Below, piece after piece: positions 3,001-51,412 of a DNA stretch of 64,000 nt. The notes beneath the pieces were generated by a model, which was not told where the DNA came from, ran no database searches, and worked only from the letters and a program-made list of their open reading frames with translations. Source of the DNA: Telopea speciosissima (taxonomy: Eukaryota; Streptophyta; Magnoliopsida; Proteales; Proteaceae); the NCBI RefSeq assembly GCF_018873765.1, contig NC_057924.1:1860001-1924000 (forward strand). Reading direction: 5' to 3'. Made by a program: the position numbers and the translations under genes. Position 1 is the stretch's first letter; every line of letters starts with the position of its first letter.

Positions 3001-6000
3001 TAACAGATGCCATGGATGTCAAAAATGCTCTAGGTGAAAGACGACCACCATGCCGGCTGAGGATGCCGGTCAGTGTCTGCCGTATCTCAAACTCCATAGC
3101 TGTTTGTAAGGTCTGTGGATCTTCAAGGAGATGCCGAACAATAACAGACGCCACACTATCATACCCAGGAAAGAAACAACTTCTTGGAAGACTAAAAACA
3201 GCAGCCAAGCCTCCACTCTCAAGGAATTGCATAGCTATAGCATGTGTTTTAGTTAAACGAGCACATAACTGTAAAACAGCCTGCATTACCAGAGCAGGAA
3301 CATGCTGCTTTATAAACTCACAGGAAACTGCTAGGGCCCTGTGACACTCATCAAGAGTCATACAACCAGTAGACTTCCCAAGTATCTTCTCAAATGCATT
3401 GCCAGATTGTTTTTCATGGGCATCTGAAGCAGGATTCTTATCTGTAGGCAGCAATGAGGAAGCATTCTCTCCAGATGAGTCAACTAAAGATTCTGTGACA
3501 AATCCTTCAGCATTTTCAGAAGAAACTCTGGGTTTGAACTGCAACATGCTGTCTAGGATAAGCAGTAAAGCGCTAATACATTTTGGGGCAAGAACCACAT
3601 CTCCTGACTCATTTTTCACCTTGAAACTTATCAATATATCTATTGCAGTGGAGGCAAGACCATTCTTTGCACCAATTTCTCGCGTACTGCCATCTTCAGA
3701 AAGAAGCAGGGCCAGAATATGTGATATCGTACACAATGCACTTGTGTCCCTTGAAAAATCTGATGGACAAAGCTTCAACTGTTGAATAAGATAAGACACC
3801 ACCTTCGGACAATCTTCTCCTTTGTTCCGATGGCAAAGAGTCACAAGCAAATCTGTCAAAGGGAAGGCCACTGAATCACTGCTCTGAAACAACCTCATAG
3901 ATGCAGCAAGAACATCATCAATGGGAGGTGGTTCAGCTCCTTTATCTTCTGCCAATACATCTCGTGACTTATCAGTGCTATCCTCCTTCGTTGTTTCTGA
4001 TGAATTGCCCAGTGACAATGCAAGTGCCCTAGCCAGCTCATCATCCTCCTGCACAGGATCTTCAGCATGACTAAACAACCACTCCATAGCCATCTCAACA
4101 CTATTTGTTTCCACCCGCCGCAGTGCTTCCTCTGCTCTTGCCCTACTAAAACCCATCTCAACTATAGTATCAATGGTAGCTTCATCTGGAGGAGGACCCA
4201 TGACACGTTGGCTTGTGCTTCCTCCAACACCATTCCGACCCCGTTTTACATCTCCAACACCAGAGTATATATGAGTAACAAGTGAAACCATTGACGTGAT
4301 GAAAGCTGGGTTGCAATTAGGGAACATGGGATGGTTCCATACAGAAAGTATCACGTCCAGAACCTGAGACTGTAACATACGAACAAACACTTCTGGGTCC
4401 CTTGGAACAGGGAATAACCCAATCGACAATCCTGCTGCAACAGGCTGAACAAGCAGCTGAGCCTGAGATGCAGATGTTGGAGACAAGAGTAAAGCAGAAT
4501 TAACAAAGTACTCAAGCATTTGACAATAATTCTGCAATGTATCAAACAACCACGTATTGTGAGACAACTTGCTCCCTTCAACTGCCTTTTCTTGATCATT
4601 GCCAGACGGAGGAATAGAATACGGAAGTGTCCAAAGCAACTGGCTTGTAGCCTCAAATGTGGTCAAAAGCTCCTTGAAGGTTCCATGAACATAAAAGTTA
4701 TTTACCAGGGCAATATTGCATGCGCGTCTTCTGCTATCAAATATTAGTGCAGCCATGTCATCCACAACCTTTCCTAGATAACGGCACTTGACTGATAATG
4801 AAGTTTCAAGACCAGCAGATGTAGAATGCCCTGGGAAACTAAGAGCCTCATGGAAAATTTTAGCCAAGGCAGTTGCAAGGCTCTTAGAAGCAGAACTCAG
4901 TGAACCAGAGTCTGCTCTGCGACGGTTTGGAGATGTAAAGCCCTTAACAAGAGTTGCATAGAAAGAGCGCATAGCAAATGCAAGCTTATTCAGATTTTCC
5001 ATGACCATAACATCAGGACTTTTCCTTTTAACATCTTGGGTAGAAGAAGTCTCAGATACATTTGCAGAACCTTCTGAATCAATGTTTGAAACCTCCATCT
5101 GTCGATTGGACCTTCCACCCCGCAACCGTGCCAAGCCGTGTCTACCATGACGATGTAAGCCTCCACCACTTCGAACTACTGATAGAAACTCATGCTCCCC
5201 AGACCAGTGGGACTGAGTAGCATTCCTTACAGAAACAGGATTCCTGTATCTCACAGGTGGAACAAGGTTTGCATCATCATCACTTTCTCTTCCTGCAGCA
5301 TTAGATAATGCCACATCTGCCTGACCACTTTCTGGATCAGCATCTCGTTTCTCATCCACCTTGGTGTCACTACACAAAGAAATATGCCACAGTATTTCCC
5401 TGTAGGCCTTTCCAAGATCCTTCAGGACATCAGTATCAGCTGAACCCAATTCAGATACCATAGTAGTAGTCCCCTTCAACAAAAAGTTGGAAAGAGACAG
5501 AATACCTTCCAGACTAGAAAGACATCTCAAGATCTTTGTTAGTTTTGCAGCTTCCAGCTCAGCAAGCTGAGTGCCTCCTACAGATGTTAATAGTTCATCA
5601 GTTAATTTCAGATGATCCCGCAAGAACACGCATACAGCCCGAGCCAGAGCAGCAGAATGCTGAGGTGAGAAATTCTTAAAAGCAACAGATATACTCTGAC
5701 CAACAGATACAGAAAGAGGCATTAATGGCAAAGTAAATAACTGCAGAACAGCTTCAACACCCTTCTTCTCAATAAATATCCGGCTTGTGTCAGCATTCTG
5801 AAGAATTGTTTCAAGAAGGCGAGCAGCATTGCTTATGCATTCAGGAAGAAAAGATTCAATATTCACTAAGGAACCATCAGAAGAAGGCTCAGTTGCATGC
5901 TCAGCACATTCCATCTTGGACGACTCTCCATCATCTGATGACAACAAATTCTTCTCTTCCGCATCAGTTTCCATAGGAACAGGAGTGGAGGAGCAGATAG

Positions 6001-32600: not shown

Positions 32601-32617
32601 ATTAGATTAGAAAAAAT

Positions 32618-34330
32618 ATGACAAAAAAACAAAGCAATATATACACCAATTATAAGATTAATTCGTTGTTAAATAGGATTATGAACACAAGGAAGATGGC
32701 AGATGAATGGAAGAGAAGAATTGTAGTTCCGATCTACAAAAATAAAGGTGATTTCCAAAGCTGCAATAACTACAGAAGCATAAAGCTAATGAGTCACACA
32801 ATGAAACTTTGGGAGAAGGTTATTGAAGCTCGGTTGAAAAGAGAGACTCTTATCTCGATGAAACAATTTGGCTTTATGATAGGTGGATCCACAACTGAAG
32901 CAATCTACTTATTGAGGAGGCTTATGGAAAGATATAGAAATAGCAAGAAGGATCTCCATATTTCTTCATCGACTTGGAAAAAGCCTATGCACGAGTCCCA
33001 AGAGATCTAATCCAACATGTTCTTATCTTACCAAAAAAAAATAAAAATCCAACATGTTCTTGTGAAGGGGGGTGTCAAGTAAATATATGGATATCATTAA
33101 AGATATGTATAAGGGCATGGTGACTAGAGTGAGATATGGGGGAGGTCAGGACAAGGAACTCCCAATTTCGATTGTATTACATCAAGGCTCAGCATTAAAC
33201 CCTTACCTTTTTGCGCAATTATCATGGATGATATAACCAAGAGCATTCAAGACGAGGTCCCATAGTGTATGCTCTTTGCTGATGATATCGTTTTGGTGGA
33301 TGAGACAAAAGAAGGGATTAACTCTAAATTAGCTTTGGAGGCCAACCTTGGAAACAAGAGGATTTAGGATTAGTAGAACGAAGATAGAGTATATGAGGTG
33401 TAATTTTGGTCACATGCACCTTTATGGATACTGATATAGTGCGAATTGAGGAAAGAGAGATACCGCAAAGTGACTATTTTAGATACCTGGATCAATCATA
33501 AATAAAGAAGGTGACATAAAGGATGATGTTACACAGAGAATTAAAGTGGGTTGGATGAAGTGGAGAGGTGCGATCGAAGTGTTGTGTGACTAACGTATTC
33601 CTCTAAAACTTAAAGGAAAGTTCTATAGGACTGTTGTTCACCCGACCATGATGTATGGGGCAGAATGTTGGGCAATTAAGAAGTGTCATATTGATAAGCT
33701 TTGTGTAGCAGAGATGAGGATGTTACGTTAGATGTATGGAAAAACAAAAAAGGATAAAGTACAGAATGAGCATATAAGAGCGGACTTGGGAGTTGCTCCA
33801 ATCAATGGCAAGCTCCGAAAGAATCATTTAATTAGGTGGTATGGTCATATTCAACAGAGACCTAGGGACACCCCAGTAAGGAGGAGTGATATGATTCCAA
33901 TTGAAGGGGCTAAAAGAATTAGGGGCAGACCTAAAATGACCATAGGAGAAGCGGTGAGGAAGGACATGCATAGTCTAGGTCTGGTCCCAAGTATGAATTT
34001 GGACAGAACCTATTGGAGGGCAAGGATCCATGTCGCAGACCCCATTTAGCTGAGATTATCCTAACGTGTTGGGCTATGTCTTTTTTGCTATTATTATCTT
34101 TCATCTTTCAGCCTATTTCATCCACAAAAAAAAAAAATCTTTCATCTTTCTATTTATCTTCCATCTTCCATCTATTATTTTCCTGTCTTTTCTCATCTCT
34201 TTCTCCATTACTTTTCTCTCAATTTTTTTAATATATTTTTGTTTTCTCCATTTTGTTTTTTGTTTGCATCCATGTGGCCGACCCCATTAAGTTAGGATAA
34301 GGCTGAGTTTGTTGTTGTTGTTTTGTTGTA
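32618..34330 (+). pseudogene. RTE-type LINE, 5'-truncated and frame-broken reverse transcriptase
   Basis: Non-LTR retrotransposon remnant. The first open frame (32,618-33,010) has the RT N-terminal blocks: MADEWKRRIVVPIYKNKGDF, NNYRSIKLMSHTMKLWEKVI, QFGFMIGGSTTEAIYLLRRL. Later pieces in other frames include LHQGSALNPYLF near 33,178 and the catalytic FADD motif near 33,275, then KAGWMKW-like and GAECWAIKK blocks, and a last frame (33,732-34,049) with RADLGVAPINGKLRKNHLIRW. The 3' end has CCCCATTAAGTTAGGATAAG followed by a (TTG)n tail at about 34,309-34,328, typical of plant RTE LINEs. Several frame breaks and stops make it dead. A short direct repeat (CCAACATGTTCTT) around 33,015-33,062 flanks a small A-rich insertion. 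Confidence 0.9.
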
Positions 34331-38048: not shown

Positions 38049-38366
38049 GTGCAGCTCGGGCAGGGTGCTGCACAGGACCCATTTGGACATTATGGAGAGA
38101 GAGAGAGAGAGAGAAAAAGAAGCGCTTGTTGAAATGGCAACAATTACGTAAGGGAAACGCATTAAGCCAGAATTGTGGTTCTTGTGAGAGGCGAGGCGAG
38201 AAACCAGTGCAGCTCGGGCAGGGTGCTGCACAGGACCCATTCGGACATTATGGAGAGAGAGAGAGAGAAAAAGAAGCGCTTGTTGAAATGGCAACAATTA
38301 CGTAAGGGAAACGCATTAAGCCAGAATTGTGGTTCTTGTGAGAGGCGAGGCGAGAAACCAGTGCAG
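38049..38366. repeat. Two-copy tandem duplication (~158 bp unit)
   Basis: Copies at 38,049-38,206 and 38,207-38,360, starting GTGCAGCTCGGGCAGGGTGC, followed by a stub GTGCAG. They differ almost only in the number of GA dinucleotides and one T/C, so the duplication is recent. Open frames across it are by-products of the repeat. Confidence 0.9.
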
Positions 38367-40824: not shown

Positions 40825-40845
40825 ATATATATATATATATATATA
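40825..40845. repeat. (TA)n microsatellite at the left edge of the tandem array
   Basis: About ten TA units ending exactly where homology to the ~368-bp monomer begins (ATTTGAAATTTATTTTGAC). Confidence 0.9.
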
Positions 40846-42571
40846 ATTTGAAATTTATTTTGACTTTTAGTACCCTACCGATTTATGACATCAAAATTTT
40901 CATATAAAATATACAAGGCATACTATGGTCGAAAAAATACCAAGTCTTAAACCTCCGTACTAATCATATAAAAACCTAAGTGCTGGTCCCAATTTTTTCG
41001 AGTGGCAGAGGATGTTTGGGGGATCCAGGGGCTGACCAGTGTGCAATAAGTTGATCCTTTTTATTTGATGAAAGTATTCATGTCTACCTGAATTGAAGCC
41101 TTTGTGTGACAGTGTTTGGAGGTGTTTTCTTAAAAAAAAAAAAAATTCTTTTGTATCTCGCAAATGAGATATACATCTTACCGGCGAGATGGTAATAATT
41201 TGAACTACATCACTTAATTTAGAATTTACTTTGACTTTTAATGCCCTACCGACTTATGATTATAAATGTCGCATATAAAATATACGAAGCATACCATGGC
41301 TGAAAAAATACCAAGTCTCAAACCTCCGTACTAATCATATAAAAATCTAAATGCTGGCCTCATTTTCCTAGGTGGCATTGAATGTTAGGAGGCTCCAAGG
41401 GCTGACCAGTGTGCAATAAGTTGATGCTTTTGATTTGAAGAAGAGGTATCCATGTTTACTTGAATTGAAGCTTTTGTGTGACAGTGTTCGGATGTGTTTC
41501 CTTTTAAAAAAAATATCTTTCATATCTTGCCGGTGAGATGTACATCTTAATGGTGAGATGCTAATAATTTGAACTACATCACTTAATTTGGAATTTACTT
41601 TGACTTTTAATGCCCTACTGACTTGTGACATCAAATGTCCCATATAAAGTGTACGAGGCATACCATGGCTGAAAAAATACCAAGTCTCAAACATTCGTAC
41701 TAATCATATAAAAACCTAAATGTTGGCCCCAATTTTCTTGGGTGACATTGGATGTTTGGGGGCTCCAGGGGCTGACTAGTGTGCAATAAGTTGATGCTTT
41801 TGATTTGAAAAAGAGGTATCTATGTCTACTTGAATTGAAGCTTTTGTATGACAGTGTTCGGATGTGTTTCTTTCTAAAAAAAATATCTTTCGTATCTCGC
41901 CGGTGAGATGTACATCTTACTGGCGAGATGCTAATAATTTAAACTATATCACTTAATTTGGAATTTACTTTGACTTTTAATGCCCTACTGACTTGGCACA
42001 TCAAATGTCCCATATAAAATATACGAGGCATACCATGGCTGAAAAAATACCAAGTCTCAAACGTTCGTACTAATCATATAAAAACCTAAATGTTGGCCCC
42101 AATTTTCTTAGGTGACATTGGATGTTTGGGGGCTCTAGGGGCTGACCAGTGTGCAATAACTTTATGCTTTTGATTTAATGAAGAGGTATTTATGTCTATC
42201 TGAATTGAAGCCTTTGTGTGATAGTGTTTAGGAGGTGTTTTGGCTTCTAAAATAAATTTCTTTCGTATCTCGTCGGTGAGATGTACATCTTACCGGCAAA
42301 ATGCTAATAATTTGGAGTACATCACTTAATTTGGAATTTACTTTGACTTTTAATGCCCTACCGACTCATGACATTAAATGTAGCATATAAAATGTATGAG
42401 ACATACATACTATAGGTGAAAAAATACCAAGTCTCAAACCTCCATACTAATCATATAAAAACCTAAATATTGACCCCAATTTTTTTGGGTGGCGTTGGAT
42501 GTTTGGGGGCTCCAGGGGTTGATCAATGTGCAATAAGTTGATGCTTTTGATTTGATGAAGAGGTATTCATG
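40846..42571. repeat. Tandem repeat array, left block (~368-bp monomers, 4 palindromes)
   Basis: Monomers share, in order: TTTACTTTGACTTTTAATGC, CCATATAAAATGTACGAGGC, ATACCAAGTCTCAAAC, CTAATCATATAAAAACCTAA, GGATGTTTGGGGGCTCCAGG, GCAATAAGTTGATGCTTTTG, TGAATTGAAGC, GTGACAGTGTTCGGA, and a palindrome. Palindromes lie at about 41,166, 41,530, 41,900 and 42,272, spacing 367-375 bp. The block starts in mid-monomer after the (TA)n tract and stops where the LTR-like insertion begins; the last five bases (TCATG) are its target duplication. Confidence 0.95.
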
Positions 42572-45295
42572 TGTCGGACCCGCAAACCACCCCCTGGGAG
42601 GATTTGGCTCGTGACCCGAATACCCAAAGTATTCGAAGACCTCCAGGATCTAGATGTAGTATTTACACTTCACAAGTACAACATCATATCAAGATAAAAA
42701 GGATTTCATTGATCTGAGTGCGCGAAAAGTATAATTCACAAGTTTATATATATATATATTATTTACATTCAAATCCTTTTTTTTCCAAACAGCCTGGATT
42801 TACATAGTTTCATCCATTGGGCCAGAAATAAGCTATACTAAAATATTTACAGTGGAATTACATCTGCCAAAAGAGTGGAGTTTTAACAAAAGAAAATAAA
42901 TGAAAAGACTTCGTCATCAGTCCCTATTTTCTAAGTAATCCCTTCCGCCACTATTGTATCCACTTGCAAGATCATCTAAAAGAAAATATTCCACAGGGGT
43001 GAGATCCACTGAGCCTAGTAAGTAAAGGATAGACCACACACAAGCAATCACAGATACAAAGCAAAAATCCTAATGCATGGATTCAATTTTAAACCTAATT
43101 TCTACCTAACAAACAATGCCTAAGTCTCTAAGTCGTACTACGCCAACAACTCGGGAAAATAGACTTGGGTCCGTCAACCTAACCCAAGCCGTAACCTCAA
43201 TTGTTGCATGGAGCCCACATAGGTTGTAATCCCCAGATCCCCCCGTGGGTAGACCCCGATAATCATAGCCTGGACCCCACCCCAGCATTCCACACACTCC
43301 TCAGTGACAGGGAGCTATGACCACCCAGCACTTGGACCCCTGCTGGTAAGGGTGGTAGTACCAAGGAATGACGTCCCTAGCCATGTGCAGACTGTATGGC
43401 ATAGTACAAGGTGTACAGTGCTCTTGCATCTCATACTACGGTACACAATACCTCTCGTTTCCAAGCCGTCTACGACATCTATTCTAGCATACAAATCACA
43501 CCATCAAACATGTTCCACATTTCATCATAATTCCACAATTTCATAATCACAAGATATGAATGAAGTAAATAATAAGACAAGTTCTAACAAGAATAATTTC
43601 ACACATATGCTCATTTCCTGATAATTAATATAAAATGATAAACACTCCAAAATAAAATCAAGGCCTATCCCCACTCACCTTGCTATAGCTGATTTTGCGC
43701 TACTAGGTTAGTTCACAAGTCGTTTGCCGGTAGGTTCAATGACCCAAGAGTAAGGTCCTAATATTTATAAACCAAACATATACGTTAGGTGGTATTCTAA
43801 TGTTACTGAAGTTCCAATATAGGTTATGGTTAATTTAAAACAAGTTTGGAGTTAAGAGAACACCTGACAGCAACACTGGTCTGTGTCTTTGGTTGACAAA
43901 TGATTTCCACCAGAGACAAACAGTAAATGAAAATTGACCCAAGAGTTAGGTTTTTAATATTTATTAACTAAGCATGCATGCTAGATGATATTCTAATGAT
44001 ACTGAAATCCCAAGATAAGTTAGGGTTGATTCAGAATAGGTTTGGAGTTAAGAAAACACTTTTCAGTAACACTGGTTTGTGTCTCTGGTTGACCAGTAAC
44101 TTCCATCAGAGACAAACAGAAAATGAAGAAGGAGGTTTTGGCTTGGTCTTCCCCAATTGACATCAGGGATGATTCCCACATATAAGATTGAGTTCTTGTG
44201 ATTCAAAATAGGCTAGGGAGGTGGGCAATTTGGGGAATTGGGGTTCAATTAATGACCATGGTTCAGATATGTAAGAAATATTCAGAATTATTTTACATGA
44301 ACTGAACCAACTAAATATGGTTGGAAAACTAATTATACAACATGGATTAAACTAAACAAGATGCTAATTGATGGTAGCACCAACAATCTAGGACCTAGAT
44401 GAAACTTCCTAATAGAGTTTAGCATATATGGAGATAGCTTAACTATATTAAATAGTCTTCTTAAGTAAACCCACACCCATGAAACTAGGTGCTTGGATTT
44501 CCCAAATCAGGGATAAATTTGACACAGGAAACAGGGTAAAAGTAATTGGAATTTAGATAGAATGAGATGTGGGTGGTAAGTCTCTTACCAAAACAGGATT
44601 TTTGACTCAGCCTTCTTCTTCTTCTTCTTCTTTCTTCTTCACTCAGCTTTCATTCGTTCAGGTTTGAAGAGAGGTGAATAATGAAAGATGTTTTATTTAT
44701 ATATGGTGTATTAGTCGGTCACTTAAATCTTATCCCTATTAATTATTAAATGATTATTTAGCCAAATTTGTGTATGAAGGTTAGTTAAACGGGTCCCACT
44801 TACCAACATTATTGGGGAAATATTTCAACAAGCTAAATGGGACACGACGGCAAGATCCCCTACTCGAGGCACCGGGTCCCGCACTCTCGAGACAGGAATC
44901 TACAGTAATAGTACTCTGGTTGATATATGTGGTTGATCAGAAGATCCACCAGAGTGTGTTTTATGTGCTGTCCAAGTGTCGGAAAGCCTCGAGCTTTGGC
45001 GGTTTTGCGTATTAACACATTTCCAACGATGTTTTCATGCCCCAAATACCCAAAACATGGTCAGGGTCGCTTTCCATGATTTATACATTAGATTGTAAAT
45101 TTTGAAATTGTATGGGGGAGGTACGCATCATTTTGCCGGTAGACAACGGGTTACCACCAAGATTCCTTCTTCATCTTCTACTCGTTCGAACATCAAAACA
45201 ATACACCAAAATGTATACAAGGCTGCCACTTCGGATTCTGGACCTACCATCGGATTCAGTTTAGGGTTCGGGTCGAAAAAAGTCAAGCTGTAACA
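42572..45295. mobile_element. Solo LTR (or non-autonomous LTR element), 2,724 bp
   Basis: Begins TGTCGGACCCGC and ends GTCAAGCTGTAACA, i.e. the TG...CA ends of LTR elements, and is flanked by the 5-bp direct repeat TCATG (42,567-42,571 and 45,296-45,300). The array monomer continues across the junction without loss of phase. No gag-pol frame, primer-binding site or second LTR is seen, so a solo LTR left by recombination is the best reading. A length of 2.7 kb fits large-LTR Ty3/gypsy groups, but the clade is a guess. It has an internal tandem duplication (43,739-44,135) and a CTT tract (44,617-44,640). Confidence 0.85.
43739..44135. repeat. Internal tandem duplication in the LTR-like insertion
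   Basis: Two ~198-bp copies start TGACCCAAGAGT (43,739 and 43,937) and share TATTCTAATG, GGTTTGGAGTTAAGA-like, CAACACTGGT-like and CAGAGACAAACAG words. They are diverged by many substitutions, so the duplication predates this insertion and belongs to the family. Confidence 0.8.
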
Positions 45296-48200
45296 TCATG
45301 TCTGCTTGAATTGAAGCTTTTATGTGACAGTGTTCGGAGATGCTTGCCAAACAAAAAAATTTCTTTCGTATCTCACCGGTGAGATTTACATCTTACCGGC
45401 GCGATGCTAATAATTTAAATTACATCATTTAATTTGGAATTTACTTTGACTTTTAATGCCCTACCGACTTATGACATTTAATGTCCCATATAAAATGTAT
45501 GAGGCATACCATGGCAGAAAAAATACCAAGTGTCAAACTTCTGTACTAATCATTTAAAAACTTAAATGTTAGACCCAATTTTCCTAGGTGGCATTGGATA
45601 TTTGGGGCCTTCTGGGGCAGACTAGTATGCAATAAGTTGATGCTTTTGATTTAATGAAGAGGTATTCATGTCTACCTGAATTGAAGCTTTTGTGTGACAG
45701 TGTTCAGAGGTGTTTCTTTCTATAAAATATTTCTTTCGTATCTCGCCGGTGAGATATACATCTTACCGACGAGATGCCAATAATTTGAACTACATCACCT
45801 AATTAGGAATTTACTTTGACTTTTAATGCCCTACCGACTTATGACATCAAATGTCCCATAGAAAATGTACGAGACATTCCCTAGCCGAAAAAATATAAAA
45901 TCTTAAATCTCTGTACTAATCATATAAAAACCTAAATGTTGGCCCGAACTTGGGTGGAATTGGATGTTTGGGGGCTCCAAGGGCTAACCAGTATGCAATA
46001 AGCTGATGCTTTTGATTTGATGAAGATGTATTCATGTCTATCTGAATTGAAGCCTTTGTGAGACAGTGTTCAGAGGTGTTTCCTTCTAAAAAAATATATA
46101 TTTTGTATCTCGCCGGTGAGTTGTACATCTTACCGACGAAATGTTAATAATTTGAACTACATTACTTAATTTGAAATTTATTTTTACTTTTAATGCCCTA
46201 CCGACTTATGACATCAAATGTCCCATATAAAATGTACGAGGCATACCATGGCCAAAAAAATAGTAAGTCTCAAACCTTCGTACTAATCATATAAAAACTT
46301 AAATGTTGACCCAAATTTTCTTGGGTGACATTAGAAATTTCGGGGCTCCAAGGGCTGATCACTGTGCAATAAGTTGATTCTTTTGATTTGATGAAGAGTT
46401 ATTCATATTTACCTGAATTTAAGCCTTTGTGTGACAGTGTTCGGAAGTGTTGCCTTTAAAAAATATTTCTTTCGTATCTTGCCGGTGAGATGTACATCTT
46501 ACCGGCGAGATGCTAATAATTTGAACAACATCACTTAATTTAGAATTTACTTTGACCTTTAATGCCCGATCAAATTTGAGACTTACTATTTTTTCGGCCA
46601 TGGTACTAGTCATATAAAAACCTAAATGCTGGCCCCAAATTTCCTAGGTGACATTGGATGTTTGGGGGGCTCCAACGGCTGACCATTGTGCATTAAGTTG
46701 ATGCTTTTAATTTGATGAAGAGGTATTCGTGTCTACCTGAATTGAAGCCTTTGTGGAACTGTTTTAAGAGGTGTTTGGCTTCTAAAAAAAATTTCTTTCG
46801 TATCTCGCCGGTGAAATGTACATCTTCTCGGCGAGATGCTAATAATTTAGACTACATCACTTAATTTGGAATTTATTTTAATTTTTAATGCCCGACCGAC
46901 TCATGACATTAAATATAACATATAAAATGTACATGACATGTATACCATGGACAAAAAATATCAAGTCTCAAATCTCCGTACTTTTCATATAAAAACCTAA
47001 ATTTTATCCCAGATTTTTCTGGATGGCATTGGATGTTTGGGGGGCTCCAGGGGTTGACCAGTATGCAATAAGCTGATGTTTTTTATTTGATGAAGATGTA
47101 TTCATATCTACCTGAATTGAAACCTTTGTGTGAGTGTGTTCTGAGGTGTTTCCTTCTCAAAAAAATATCTTTCGTATCTCGTCGGTGAGATGTACATCTT
47201 ACTAGCGAGATGCTAATAATTTGAACTACATCACTTAATTTGAAATTTATTTTAACTTTTAATGTCCTACCGACTTATAAAATTAAATGTCTCATATAAA
47301 ATGTACGAGGCATACAATGGCCAAAAAAATTCAAAGTCTCAAACCTCCGTACTAATCATATTAAAACCTAAGCGCTGGCCACAATTTTCTTAGGTAGGTT
47401 TGGATGTTTGGGGGCTTCAGGGGCTGACCAGTATGCAATAAACTGATGCTTTTGATTTGATGAAGAGGTATTCATGACTACCTGAATTTAAACTTTTGTG
47501 TGATAGTATTCGGAGGTGTTTCCTTCTAAAAAAAATACCTTACGTATCTCGCCGGTGAGATTTACATCTGACCGGCGAGATGCTAATAATTTGAACTACA
47601 TTACTTAATTTGAAATTTACTTTGACTTTTAATCTGCTACCAACTTGTGACATCAAATGTCTCATATAAAATGTATGAGGCATACCATAGCTGAAAAAAT
47701 ACCAAGTCTCAAACGTCCGTACTATTCATATAAAGAGCTAAATGTTGACCCCAAGTTTCCTGGGTGACGTTGGATGTTTCGGGGCGCAAGGGGCTAACTA
47801 GTGTGCAATAACTTTATGCTTTTGATTTAATGAAGAGGTATTCATGTCTATCTGAATTGAAGCATTTGTGTGATAGTGTTTAGAGGTGTTTTGGCTTCTA
47901 AATTTTTTTTTTCCCGTATCTCGTTGGTGAGATATAAATCTTACCGGAAAGATGCTAATAATTTGGAGTAGATCACTTAATTTGAAATTTACTTTGACTT
48001 TTAATGCCCTATCGATTTGTGACATCAAATGTAGCATATAAAATGTACAAGACATATATACCATAGCCAAAAAAATACCAAGTCTCAAACGTCCATACTA
48101 ATCATATAAAAACCTAAATGTTGGCCCCAATTTTCCTGGGTGGCTTTGGATGTTTGGGGGCTCTAGGGGCTGACCAGAGTGTAATAAGTTGATGCTTTTG

Positions 48201-49770
48201 ACTTGATGAAGAGGTATTCATGTCTGCCTGAATTGAAGCTTTTGTGTGACAGTATTCGGAGATGCTTGTCAACTAAAAAAAATTTCTTTCGTATCTCGCA
48301 GGTGAGATTTACATCTCACCAGCGAGATACTAATAATTTGCATTGCATAACTTAATTTGGAATTTACTTTGACATTTAATGCCCTATCGACTTATGACAT
48401 TTAATGTCCCATATAAAATGTACGAGGCATACCATGGCAGAAAAAATACGAAGTCTCAAACTTCTGTATTCTAAATGTTGGACCCAATTTTCCTAGGTGG
48501 CATTGGATATTTGGGGCATTCTGGGGCTGACCAGTGTGTAATAAGTTAATGCTTTTGATTTGATTAAGAGGCATTCATCACTACCTGAATTGAAGCTTTT
48601 TTGTGACAGTGTTCGGAGGTGTTTTCTTCTAAAAAATATTTCTTTCGTATCTCCCCAGTGAAATGTATATTTTACCGGTGAGATGCTAATAATTTGAACT
48701 ACATCACTTAATTAAGAATTTACTTTGACTTTTAATACCCTACTGACTTATGACATCAAACTTCCCATAGAAAGTGTACGAGGCATACTATGACCGAAAA
48801 AATACAAAGTCTTAAACCTTCATACTAATCATATAAAAACGTAAATGTTGGCCTCACATTTCTAAGGTGGCATTGGATGTTTGGGGGTTACAGAGGCTAA
48901 CCAGTATGTAATAAACTGATGCTTTTGATTTGACGAAGAAGTATTCATGTCTACCTGAATTGAAGCCTTTGTGAGACAGTGTTCAGAGGTGTTTCCTTCT
49001 AAAAAAAACATCTTTCGTATCTCGCCCGTGAGTTGTATATCTTACTGGCGAGATGCTAAAAATTTGTACTATATCATTTAATTTGAAATTAATTTTGACC
49101 TTTAATGCCCTACCGACTTTAGACATCAAGTGTCCCATATAAAATGTACGAGGCATACCATGGTTGAAAAAATAGTAAGTCTCAAACCTTTGTACTAATC
49201 ATATAAAAACCAAAATGCTGACCCTAATTTTTTTGGGTGGCATTAGAAATTTGGGGGCTCAAGGGCTGACTAGTGTGCAATAAGTTTATGCTTTTGATTT
49301 GTTGAAGAGGTATTCATGTCTACTTGAATTGAAGGTTTTATTTGACAGTGTTCGGAGGTGTTTAGCTTTAAAAAATATTTCTTTCGTATCTTGGTGAGAT
49401 GTACATCATACCGGCGATATGCTAATAATTTGAACAACATCACTTAATTTAGAATTTACTTTGAATTTTAATACCCTACCAACTTTTGGCATTAAAATAT
49501 TCGAGGCATATATACCATGGCCAAAAAATACCTAGTCAAAATCTCCATACTAATCATATAAAAACTAAATGTTAGCCCCAATTTTTTTGGGTTGCATTGG
49601 ATGTTTGGGGGCTCTATGGGCTAACCATTATGCAATAAGTTGATACTTTTGATTTGATGAAGAGATATTCGTGTCTACGAATTGAAGCCTTTGTGTGACA
49701 GTGTTAGAGGTGTTTGGTTTCTAAAAAAATATCTTTCGTATCTCGCATGTGAGTTGTACATCTTACCGGC
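45296..49770. repeat. Tandem repeat array, right block (~368-bp monomers, 13 palindromes)
   Basis: Same monomer as the left block. Palindromes at about 45,378, 45,744, 46,111, 46,481, 46,809, 47,183, 47,551, 47,922, 48,297, 48,651, 49,021, 49,391 and 49,745. Spacing is 352-374 bp except 328 bp between the fourth and fifth, caused by a local inversion plus deletion (46,571-46,603). The clearest palindrome is 46,477-46,510. The array stops inside a palindrome at about 49,770, where a different inverted-repeat element begins. Confidence 0.95.
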
Positions 49771-49772
49771 CG

Positions 49773-49965
49773 AGTTTCCCTCCACCCACTGTGAATGGGA
49801 TCACCACCCACTTGTGAATGGGATCCCATTCACCGAGGGGCTGGAGAGGGCAGGAATGAATATTAGAAGGGTATTTTGGAACATACTAAAACCTAGGAAG
49901 GGTTATTGAACCCTAGGATGGTGGGTGAACCGTCCTCTATAGGTGGAGGAAAATTTTGTCTACAA
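49773..49965. mobile_element. MITE-like element ending the tandem array
   Basis: GTTTCCCTCCACCCAC on the left is mirrored by GGTGGAGGAAAATTTT on the right; between them GAATGGGATC occurs twice near 49,792-49,840. The insertion point cuts the last palindrome of the array. No clear target duplication. Confidence 0.5.
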
Positions 49966-51412
49966 TTATATATTATAAAATATATGGGCAAGAGATCGCC
50001 GCATGGTTGTGTAGCCTTGCACCACCAGGAGGGCCAATGAGAGCACGTGTAGGGGCAATGACATGGATGGGTTTTTTGATTTCACAATGGGGTAGGGTTA
50101 TTAATTCGCGAGCTCTGTGTCTGGGTGTTGGAACCATGCAACCAAGTAACATTTTTTTCCCCATATTATATATATTGGATCAGGTGGGGCACAAGAACCA
50201 TGCAACCCCAAATTATATATACATGGTCAGCCTGGGCTGGGCTGTGCTGGGCTCAGCCCAAGACCTCAGTATAAGCCCAGCCAGCCCTACCTCGGGTTGG
50301 AAATCTCAATCCTAGACGTATTTCAGTGTTGGAGAAAGTTATTCACCGCCCAAGATGAAGAGAATAGGTTCAGATGTGGTAGCTTAAGAAATTCTTACTT
50401 CACTGTGGGTGAAGGGAAACTCGGTCATTCAATATTTAACAACCAAATCCTTTTGATATGGATGGTGCTCCGTACTCTTACTCTAAAACTTCAAATTCAC
50501 TCTAGAAGAGCATGTACATTCTTCGAATTCAAATGTTTAGGAATATGATTAGAAAAAAGATGTTCCAAGTTAAAGAGTATTCTTGAGGTAAATTGAAATT
50601 TTGACTTAGTTGGACACAAGATCCATAGTGAACCAAATATTAAACATGCTTCCTTTCTCCATTCTATGAAAATCCATTTATACAGATAATGACATAGATA
50701 TGCTTTATCAAGATGATGGTCTCCACTTTAAAGGTTACAACAAGGGGAGTGTCACTATCATGAGTCATGTTGAGTAATAGAGTTTAGGTTTGTATCTATG
50801 TTGAGTCATAGTTGTATTTATGAATCAACAGACACAAGCCCTAGCTCTACAACTCAGCATAACAGATTTTCATCCTCTCAAGTAAACTGCCCAGTGCACA
50901 TTTTAAGTGCATCCATTGGTGACCACTGCACTTGAGAGGATAAAATCCAAGAACATGTTTTTGACCATCGTTGGCTACACTTTAACAGTGCACTGGGCAG
51001 TACACCGCACTTGAGAGAATAAAAATTCCAACAGAACTCACAATAGGGACACACTCCCCCTATGTGAGTAACCTTTAACAATGCCAATTTGAGGTTGGCA
51101 AGTGAATCAACTTGGATTACAATCCAATCTCAAGCACCAGTTCGAAAGGGTTCTCGCTGAATCCATCACACACTAGTTACCCTTCACTTATCCAAATTGT
51201 TAGTAACTATCTGTGTCTACTGCAGCAAAATAGACCATATTATACCCATGATCCCGAACATCCAATCTCTCCTTGCAGAAAGTGCCCCCCCCCCCCCCTC
51301 TTTTGTCTTTAAAGATCAATCGAATCAGAAAGAGGCCACAATTGTGTAAAATTATAAATACTAGCATCTTCATTGCTGTAATTAAAGTTCAATTCAACCT
51401 CCATTTTTACAT
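49966..51412. other. Spacer with small repeats; probable 3' UTR of the C2 gene at its right end
   Basis: Holds a dispersed block at about 49,988-50,165, a GGGCTGGGCTG-rich patch at 50,225-50,300, an inverted-repeat element at 50,869-51,028, and a poly-C run at 51,287-51,300. The last ~100-250 bp probably form the 3' UTR of the minus-strand C2 gene, whose stop is at 51,413-51,415. Confidence 0.5.
50869..51028. mobile_element. MITE (~160 bp)
   Basis: Left ATCCTCTCAAGT...ACTGCCCAGTGCAC is mirrored by GTGCACTGGGCAGT...ACTTGAGAGAAT on the right. A partial inner copy (CACTTGAGAGGATAAAATCC at 50,929) shows an internal rearrangement. Confidence 0.75.

Follow-up and report, generated by a model that had tools for sequence, protein, structure and literature searches.

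The window analysed here is a 64,000-nucleotide stretch of the Telopea speciosissima genome (C9:1,860,001-1,924,000), and the feature under study is a tandem array of 17 head-to-tail units of ~370 bp on its forward strand (40846..49770). A sequence-only reading had placed the array between PARN and a C2 gene. The PARN assignment is upheld by a CAF1 domain match (E 6e-27), while the C2 match is weak (E 0.003-0.005) and falls under the Pfam cut-off. Upstream of the array, the open frames at 32606-34049 resemble, in our own reading, a non-LTR retrotransposon; the first gives a weak RVT_1 match (E 1e-5, under the cut-off) and the second has no Pfam match. A young duplication at 38049-38366 consists of two nearly identical tandem copies of 154 bp, which TRF scores at 96% and which agree at 100% over 114 bp. 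On the other side, an element with 26-bp terminal inverted repeats (92%) occupies 49770-50424 and starts at the last base of the array; no clear target duplication was seen, and a search of the window with its end sequence recovered its own two ends and nothing else.

Structure of the array

The array that had been reported from the sequence alone, with about 17 units of ~368 bp, is real. A landmark sequence within the unit matches 17 times at ≤3 mismatches, on the plus strand throughout, a number reached by none of 100 shuffled controls (mean 0.03), and TRF finds a 370-bp period over 40,844-42,572, 45,296-46,567 and 46,603-49,770. The consensus of the 17 window units is 370 bp. Leaving out the spacing that crosses an insert, the landmarks lie 356-375 bp apart with one spacing of 326 bp, a small correction to the 352-375 and 328 bp given earlier. 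Units cut at the landmark measure 366-375 bp, with unit 5 taken without its insert, and the exceptions are unit 9 (326 bp), unit 14 (356 bp) and unit 17 (316 bp). Without the insert the array is 6.2 kb long, the same figure that had been obtained before. Pairwise identity between the 17 units averages 83.4% (range 77-91%), so that a divergence judged by eye at 10-20% is slightly wider when measured, at 9-23%.

Unit 17 (49455..49770, plus strand) is truncated and ends the array, which does not restart within the window beyond 49770. Outside the array, nhmmer found no copy of the unit in the 64-kb window at E ≤ 10, and BLAST gave 13-16-bp matches only. Three open reading frames of the array were scanned and have no Pfam domain; the window contains no Rfam family at the gathering score and no tRNA. 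A 185-bp half-unit substructure was considered and rejected, as the self-match of the consensus at E < 1 is confined to a palindrome described below.

Internal history of the array

Identity between units is highest at a distance of eight: over all nine pairs at lag 8 the mean is 0.857, compared with 0.826-0.849 at other lags. Five successive pairs carry this excess, with units 4-8 (41964..46545, plus strand, insert included) forming the first copy of a duplication and units 12-16 (47616..49454, plus strand) the second, at 87-90% identity to the first. Their average is 0.887, and permuting the order of the units 5000 times never reached it. In the unit tree, four of these pairs form starred clades and the fifth, units 7 and 15, has support of 89/85. 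Sequence states shared by only two units point the same way, with 38 of 98 found at lag 8, although 13 of these are columns where the gaps of units 9 and 17 overlap. As a single long self-match, by contrast, the window array reaches only 84.8% at this lag (lag 2,917). Units 9 and 17 have two rare substitutions in common, yet neither is the best match of the other, and no lag-8 excess was found for units 1-3 against units 9-11. For these two reasons the duplicated block was either five units with a three-unit gap or eight units of which the end of the second copy was lost.

Smaller events are recorded in single units. Unit 3 (41594..41963, plus strand) is a hybrid whose front resembles unit 4 and whose rear mostly resembles unit 2: 50 sites distinguish units 2 and 4, and in unit 3 the first 20 of them comprise 17 four-like, 2 two-like and 1 neither, and the last 30 comprise 22 two-like and 8 four-like. 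This is the pattern that a one-unit tandem duplication with mid-unit breakpoints would leave. Unit 9 (46546..46871, plus strand), at 326 bp, is 44 bp under the consensus; besides this loss of sequence it shows a micro-inversion near 46,572-46,603, which is seen as a minus-strand nhmmer match as well.

The inserted LTR noted by the sequence-only reading was also recovered. It is a solo-LTR-like insert of 2,724 bp (42572..45295, unstranded) with TG...CA ends and a 5-bp target duplication (TCATG/TCATG), and no long terminal repeats were found inside it. At ≤2 mismatches the genome has 15 matches to the first 30 bases of the insert, counting the one in the window (control 0). Two of them are on the same strand of C9 with 6.0 kb between them, a spacing that would be expected for both ends of a complete element. 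With these ends, the target duplication, the lack of a partner LTR and relatives in the genome, the insert is best called a solo LTR. It sits in unit 5 and is missing from unit 13, the duplicate of unit 5, and is therefore younger than the lag-8 duplication. Within the insert, a tandem duplication of 173 bp at 196-bp spacing (43759-44127) has an identity of 81%.

An imperfect palindrome in the unit

Positions 301-336 of the unit form a 36-bp imperfect palindrome, exemplified by 41894..41929 in unit 3 (plus strand, with a minus-strand match), which extends to 46 bp at 87%. Sixteen of the 17 units carry a recognisable copy, the exception being unit 17, which is cut off inside the palindrome, and the palindrome score was reached by none of 1000 simulated consensus sequences. 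Genome-wide there are 698 and 892 matches on the two strands at ≤3 mismatches (control 0), numbers that are not a copy number because the sequence is nearly its own reverse complement and a single place may be counted on both strands, as two pairs among the matches listed show. Dyads are enriched in many centromeres (PMC8997354). Together with the retention of the palindrome, this would be consistent with a working element whose hairpin or cruciform matters for chromatin or recombination.

The pattern of substitution argues against such a role. In the window the paired fraction of the arms is 0.789 against 0.790 after shuffling, and in 355 monomers from other loci it is 0.7533 against 0.7507 for within-locus shuffles (47 of 300 reach the observed value) and 0.7516 for overall shuffles (75 of 300). 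With arms that show no compensatory change in either set, a hairpin under constraint was rejected. Nor does the palindrome segment show excess conservation once base context is allowed for. Over the unit as a whole, the highest residual conservation of any sub-region is 0.039, compared with a 95% permutation level of 0.046, and an A-tract at 279-293 is conserved slightly under expectation (-0.080 vs -0.079). The predicted DNA fold of the whole unit has a z of -1.8, and 5 of 100 shuffles do as well. As far as these data go, the palindrome is a property of the founder sequence that has been passively inherited, and we regard a working element as quite improbable.

C-to-T decay of the units

About half of the changes that separate the window units from their consensus are C>T or G>A (307 of 595). 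The C>T rate is 0.13 and the T>C rate 0.02, a bias that polarising the consensus by majority can inflate. By context, C>T changes in the window occur at rates of 0.179 in CG, 0.145 in CHG and 0.111 in CHH, and the 355 monomers of other loci give 0.182, 0.189 and 0.120, respectively. From sequence, this pattern would fit deamination of methylated cytosine.

Divergence at A/T sites varies between loci. It is 0.065-0.068 from the family consensus in C11:46.26 (L039), C11:48.50 (L041), C18 (L043) and C78 (L044), and 0.040-0.042 in C2 (L029) and C4 (L030), while C>T decay is alike (0.126-0.145) in these high and low groups. There is no strict tie to higher-order structure, as the C7 loci have values of 0.048-0.050 and the monomeric C11:48.50 has 0.065. 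We do not claim mutagenic re-amplification, since A/T divergence is high in only some higher-order loci and also in monomeric C11:48.50.

A genome-wide satellite family

The sequence-only reading had proposed that the unit might be common to a larger satellite elsewhere and that a genome search could reveal further arrays. Both suggestions were borne out when the assembly (822.9 Mb in 1,287 contigs) was searched. The landmark has 1,295 and 1,745 matches on the two strands at ≤2 mismatches, 3,040 in total, compared with 6 and 8 (14) for a reversed-pattern control, and the arrays are on several contigs. A third marker has 423 and 661 matches at ≤1 mismatch (control 0 and 0). One supporting genome search scored 8 of 121 candidates. 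Since 13 of the 17 window units pass the landmark threshold of ≤2 mismatches, the count suggests that the assembly contains about 4,000 units, which amount to 1.5 Mb. Head-to-tail tandem order, high copy number over several arrays and a non-coding unit together identify the repeat as a satellite, and a family of this extent rules out a private local seed.

Among the matches listed, the exact landmark is found on at least seven of C1-C11 (C2, C4, C5, C6, C7, C9 and C11), and the third marker adds one further place on C10; landmark matches are also found on small contigs. There is no exact landmark or third-marker match to C1, C3 or C8 among those listed. No earlier description of the present 370-bp unit was found in the open-licence literature, which was searched for unit strings and, by title and abstract start, for Proteaceae satellites.

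Monomers and higher-order repeats across loci

For comparison we took 20 stretches of up to 10 kb from elsewhere in the assembly, which represent fewer than 20 independent arrays, three coming from the C5 cluster and two from C11:48.40-48.51. They yielded 355 full-length monomers that, with 15 from the window, give a set of 370. Mean identity is 81-85% within loci and 80-85% between loci: monomers from separate arrays resemble each other roughly as closely as adjacent ones do, and for 11 of the 15 full-length window units the best match lies at another locus. Between the window consensus and that of the 355 monomers there are differences at 2 of 370 positions, so that the window array samples the family's common ancestor. 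Single-locus consensus sequences differ from the family at 0-11 positions.

The suggestion that the window array is a small satellite seed can be weighed against these data. A family that arose at the window locus and spread from there would account for an array so near the family consensus, and its units, at 9.8% divergence, are less diverged than those of 16 of the 20 other loci. This divergence lies within the 9.0-11.9% found at other loci; the C2 and C4 loci are closer still to the consensus (9.0%), and the C1063 consensus is identical to it. Moreover, the window has no recent block in common with any of the 20 sampled loci. We therefore consider an origin at this locus highly improbable.

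Self-comparison, limited to the five best matches of ≥700 bp per locus and with multi-unit repeats marked at ≥87%, identified such repeats in 9 of the 20 loci (lags 1.5-7.6 kb, 87-98%). These are C78 (lag 5,128 bp, 97.8%), C186 (1,474 bp, 92.3%), C18 (7,605 bp, 91.1%), C9:57.56 (2,588 bp, 90.7%), C5:63.53 (3,698 bp, 89.2%), C11:46.26 (2,972 bp, 89.1%), C114 (6,529 bp, 88.1%), C7:6.37 (2,933 bp, 87.8%) and C7:16.33 (2,221 bp, 87.2%). Mostly two or three copies of the multimer are visible per 10-kb stretch. By the same five best self-matches, C2, C4, both C6 loci, C11:48.40, C11:48.50 and C11:50.94 are below 85%; also under the 87% mark are C5:63.42 (2.7 kb of array), C5:63.50 (86.6%), C83, C1063 and the window (84.8%). 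The family as a whole thus contains higher-order repeats, and the window, judged by its units, has one two-copy block at lag 8.

Multi-unit blocks are also common to different contigs, pairing C7:16.33 with C9:57.56 (88.9% over 2.6 kb), C1063 with C7:16.33 (90.6% over 3.0 kb), C11:46.26 with C18 (92.7% over 1.7 kb) and C186 with C5:63.53 (90.5% over 4.6 kb). None of the 20 loci pairs with the window array in this way: the best of its matches of ≥700 bp has 87.3% identity across 753 bp, and its matches of 1 kb or more do not exceed 86.3%. A 40-base marker of the C78 block (≤2 mismatches) occurs only in C78 (five places) and C763 (one). A spacer of ~175 bp that is not part of the unit recurs in the C78 higher-order repeat (3853-4028 and 8998-9175 of L044) and in the C11:48.40 array (1538-1747 and 4392-4566 of L040) at 79-97% identity.

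Origin and fate of the window array

We consider it very probable that the monomeric array in the window, which belongs to a dispersed plant satellite family, is old, isolated and mostly inactive, and that it grew by unequal exchange and is decaying by deamination. The family may have spread as an already fairly uniform sequence, after which out-of-register exchange or template switching would have duplicated stretches of one to several units. Where exchange continued, as on several small contigs and on C5, C7 and C11, it may have given rise to higher-order repeats; where it stopped, as in the window, units would have aged by deamination of methylated cytosine and taken up insertions. Exchange between arrays, instead of one old spread, could also keep the consensus sequences alike. 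No host function is indicated, and judging by its sequence the window array is most likely a relic that persists passively and is probably methylated.

A different origin would be a tandem repeat borne by a transposon, such as the 3' untranslated repeats of Tat/Ogre elements or a repeat borne by a Helitron, that was carried to each site. In one well-studied plant many satellites begin as transposon-borne tandem repeats (PMC7004042). In the present family, 6 of 10 3' array edges fall inside a single stretch of 49 bp within the unit (P 0.026 in a post hoc test), in a set that omits the C6:57.62 edge, which is cut by the fetched stretch, and includes a C11:46.26 edge that adjoins N. By contrast, 5' edges are scattered over unit positions, the flanks are mutually unlike at the edges, with only 18-27-bp matches in the 900 bp past the 3' edges, and the three scanned array frames lack Pfam domains. 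When the non-satellite parts of the 20 loci and the window were compared for matches of ≥60 bp, no common element emerged; the matches were the ~175-bp C11/C78 spacer, a 114-bp stretch common to two C11 loci, and dispersed repeats that lie in the window but not in the array. Helitron-like tandem arrays have borders at fixed TC...CTRR ends, and the edges seen here, at scattered unit positions, show no such fixed borders. The sequence-only reading had named membership of a known transposon family as one finding that would undo its proposal, and as far as tested the frames, the flanks, unshared at array edges inside the 10-kb stretches, and the varied edges give no sign of it. We therefore judge a transposon-borne repeat to be unlikely, and read the clustered 3' edges as hinting weakly at a preferred site of breakage rather than at a mobile element.

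Comparison with known satellites and placement of the arrays

Arrays of this kind and higher-order repeats in plants are already known (PMC10048060, PMC4053949, PMC8997354). Short euchromatic satellite arrays have been reviewed, and for arrays dispersed inside transposons the number of monomers is given as fewer than 10 (PMC10048060). The window array resembles them in being a small head-to-tail array in gene-bearing sequence whose unit is common to larger arrays elsewhere, and differs in having 17 units and an old internal block duplication. With the higher-order repeats of switchgrass and other plants (PMC4053949) the family has in common multimers of variant monomers in a plant satellite, although both unit and multimers are longer here.

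Human alpha satellite (PMC8997354) likewise combines diverged monomers, multimers of higher identity (here at lags of ~4 to 21 units) and separate monomeric arrays. The present family differs in that it has a 370-bp unit of its own, its block copies are mostly 87-93% identical and once 98%, and its placed arrays lie 2-16 Mb from contig ends. An alpha-satellite-like layering in a plant, in which the family would have spread to most chromosomes in a short time, its monomers aged, and the aged monomers later become part of locus-specific higher-order repeats that pass between chromosomes, is a tentative and rather doubtful reading; it would make the distal monomeric arrays, that of the window among them, the fossil remains of large blocks that were once heterochromatic or even centromeric.

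Under the preferred reading, of an old monomeric array left behind by unequal exchange, the window array alone is ordinary in kind and matters only as one step of growth or decay. What one genome and one unit provide is a series of stages that includes small monomeric arrays that have aged, blocks duplicated in part, and higher-order repeats that are nearly clean; this lets models of satellite growth such as unequal exchange and break-induced replication be compared with real plant intermediates.

The placement of the arrays is no more than suggestive of a distal preference. Twelve placed sites, picked from the listed matches with isolated single matches excluded, are separated from the nearer contig end by 3-24% of the length of the contig, and the mean end-proximity has a P of about 0.0008 if the sites are independent and 0.007 with eight clusters. 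The potato subtelomeric satellites CL14 and CL34 (PMC3276127) are similarly a distal family on several chromosomes, with a CL34 unit of 339 bp. Their arrays reach up to 1-3 Mb and join telomeric repeats at some ends, whereas those of the present family lie megabases inside contigs. Four placed arrays, on C5, C7, C9 and C11, are 6.37-6.44 Mb from a contig end, which may be chance. The unit strand flips near 63.49 Mb in the C5:63.42-63.56 Mb cluster, and near 3.0 kb in the C4 array (L030), pointing to large inverted arrays at both places.
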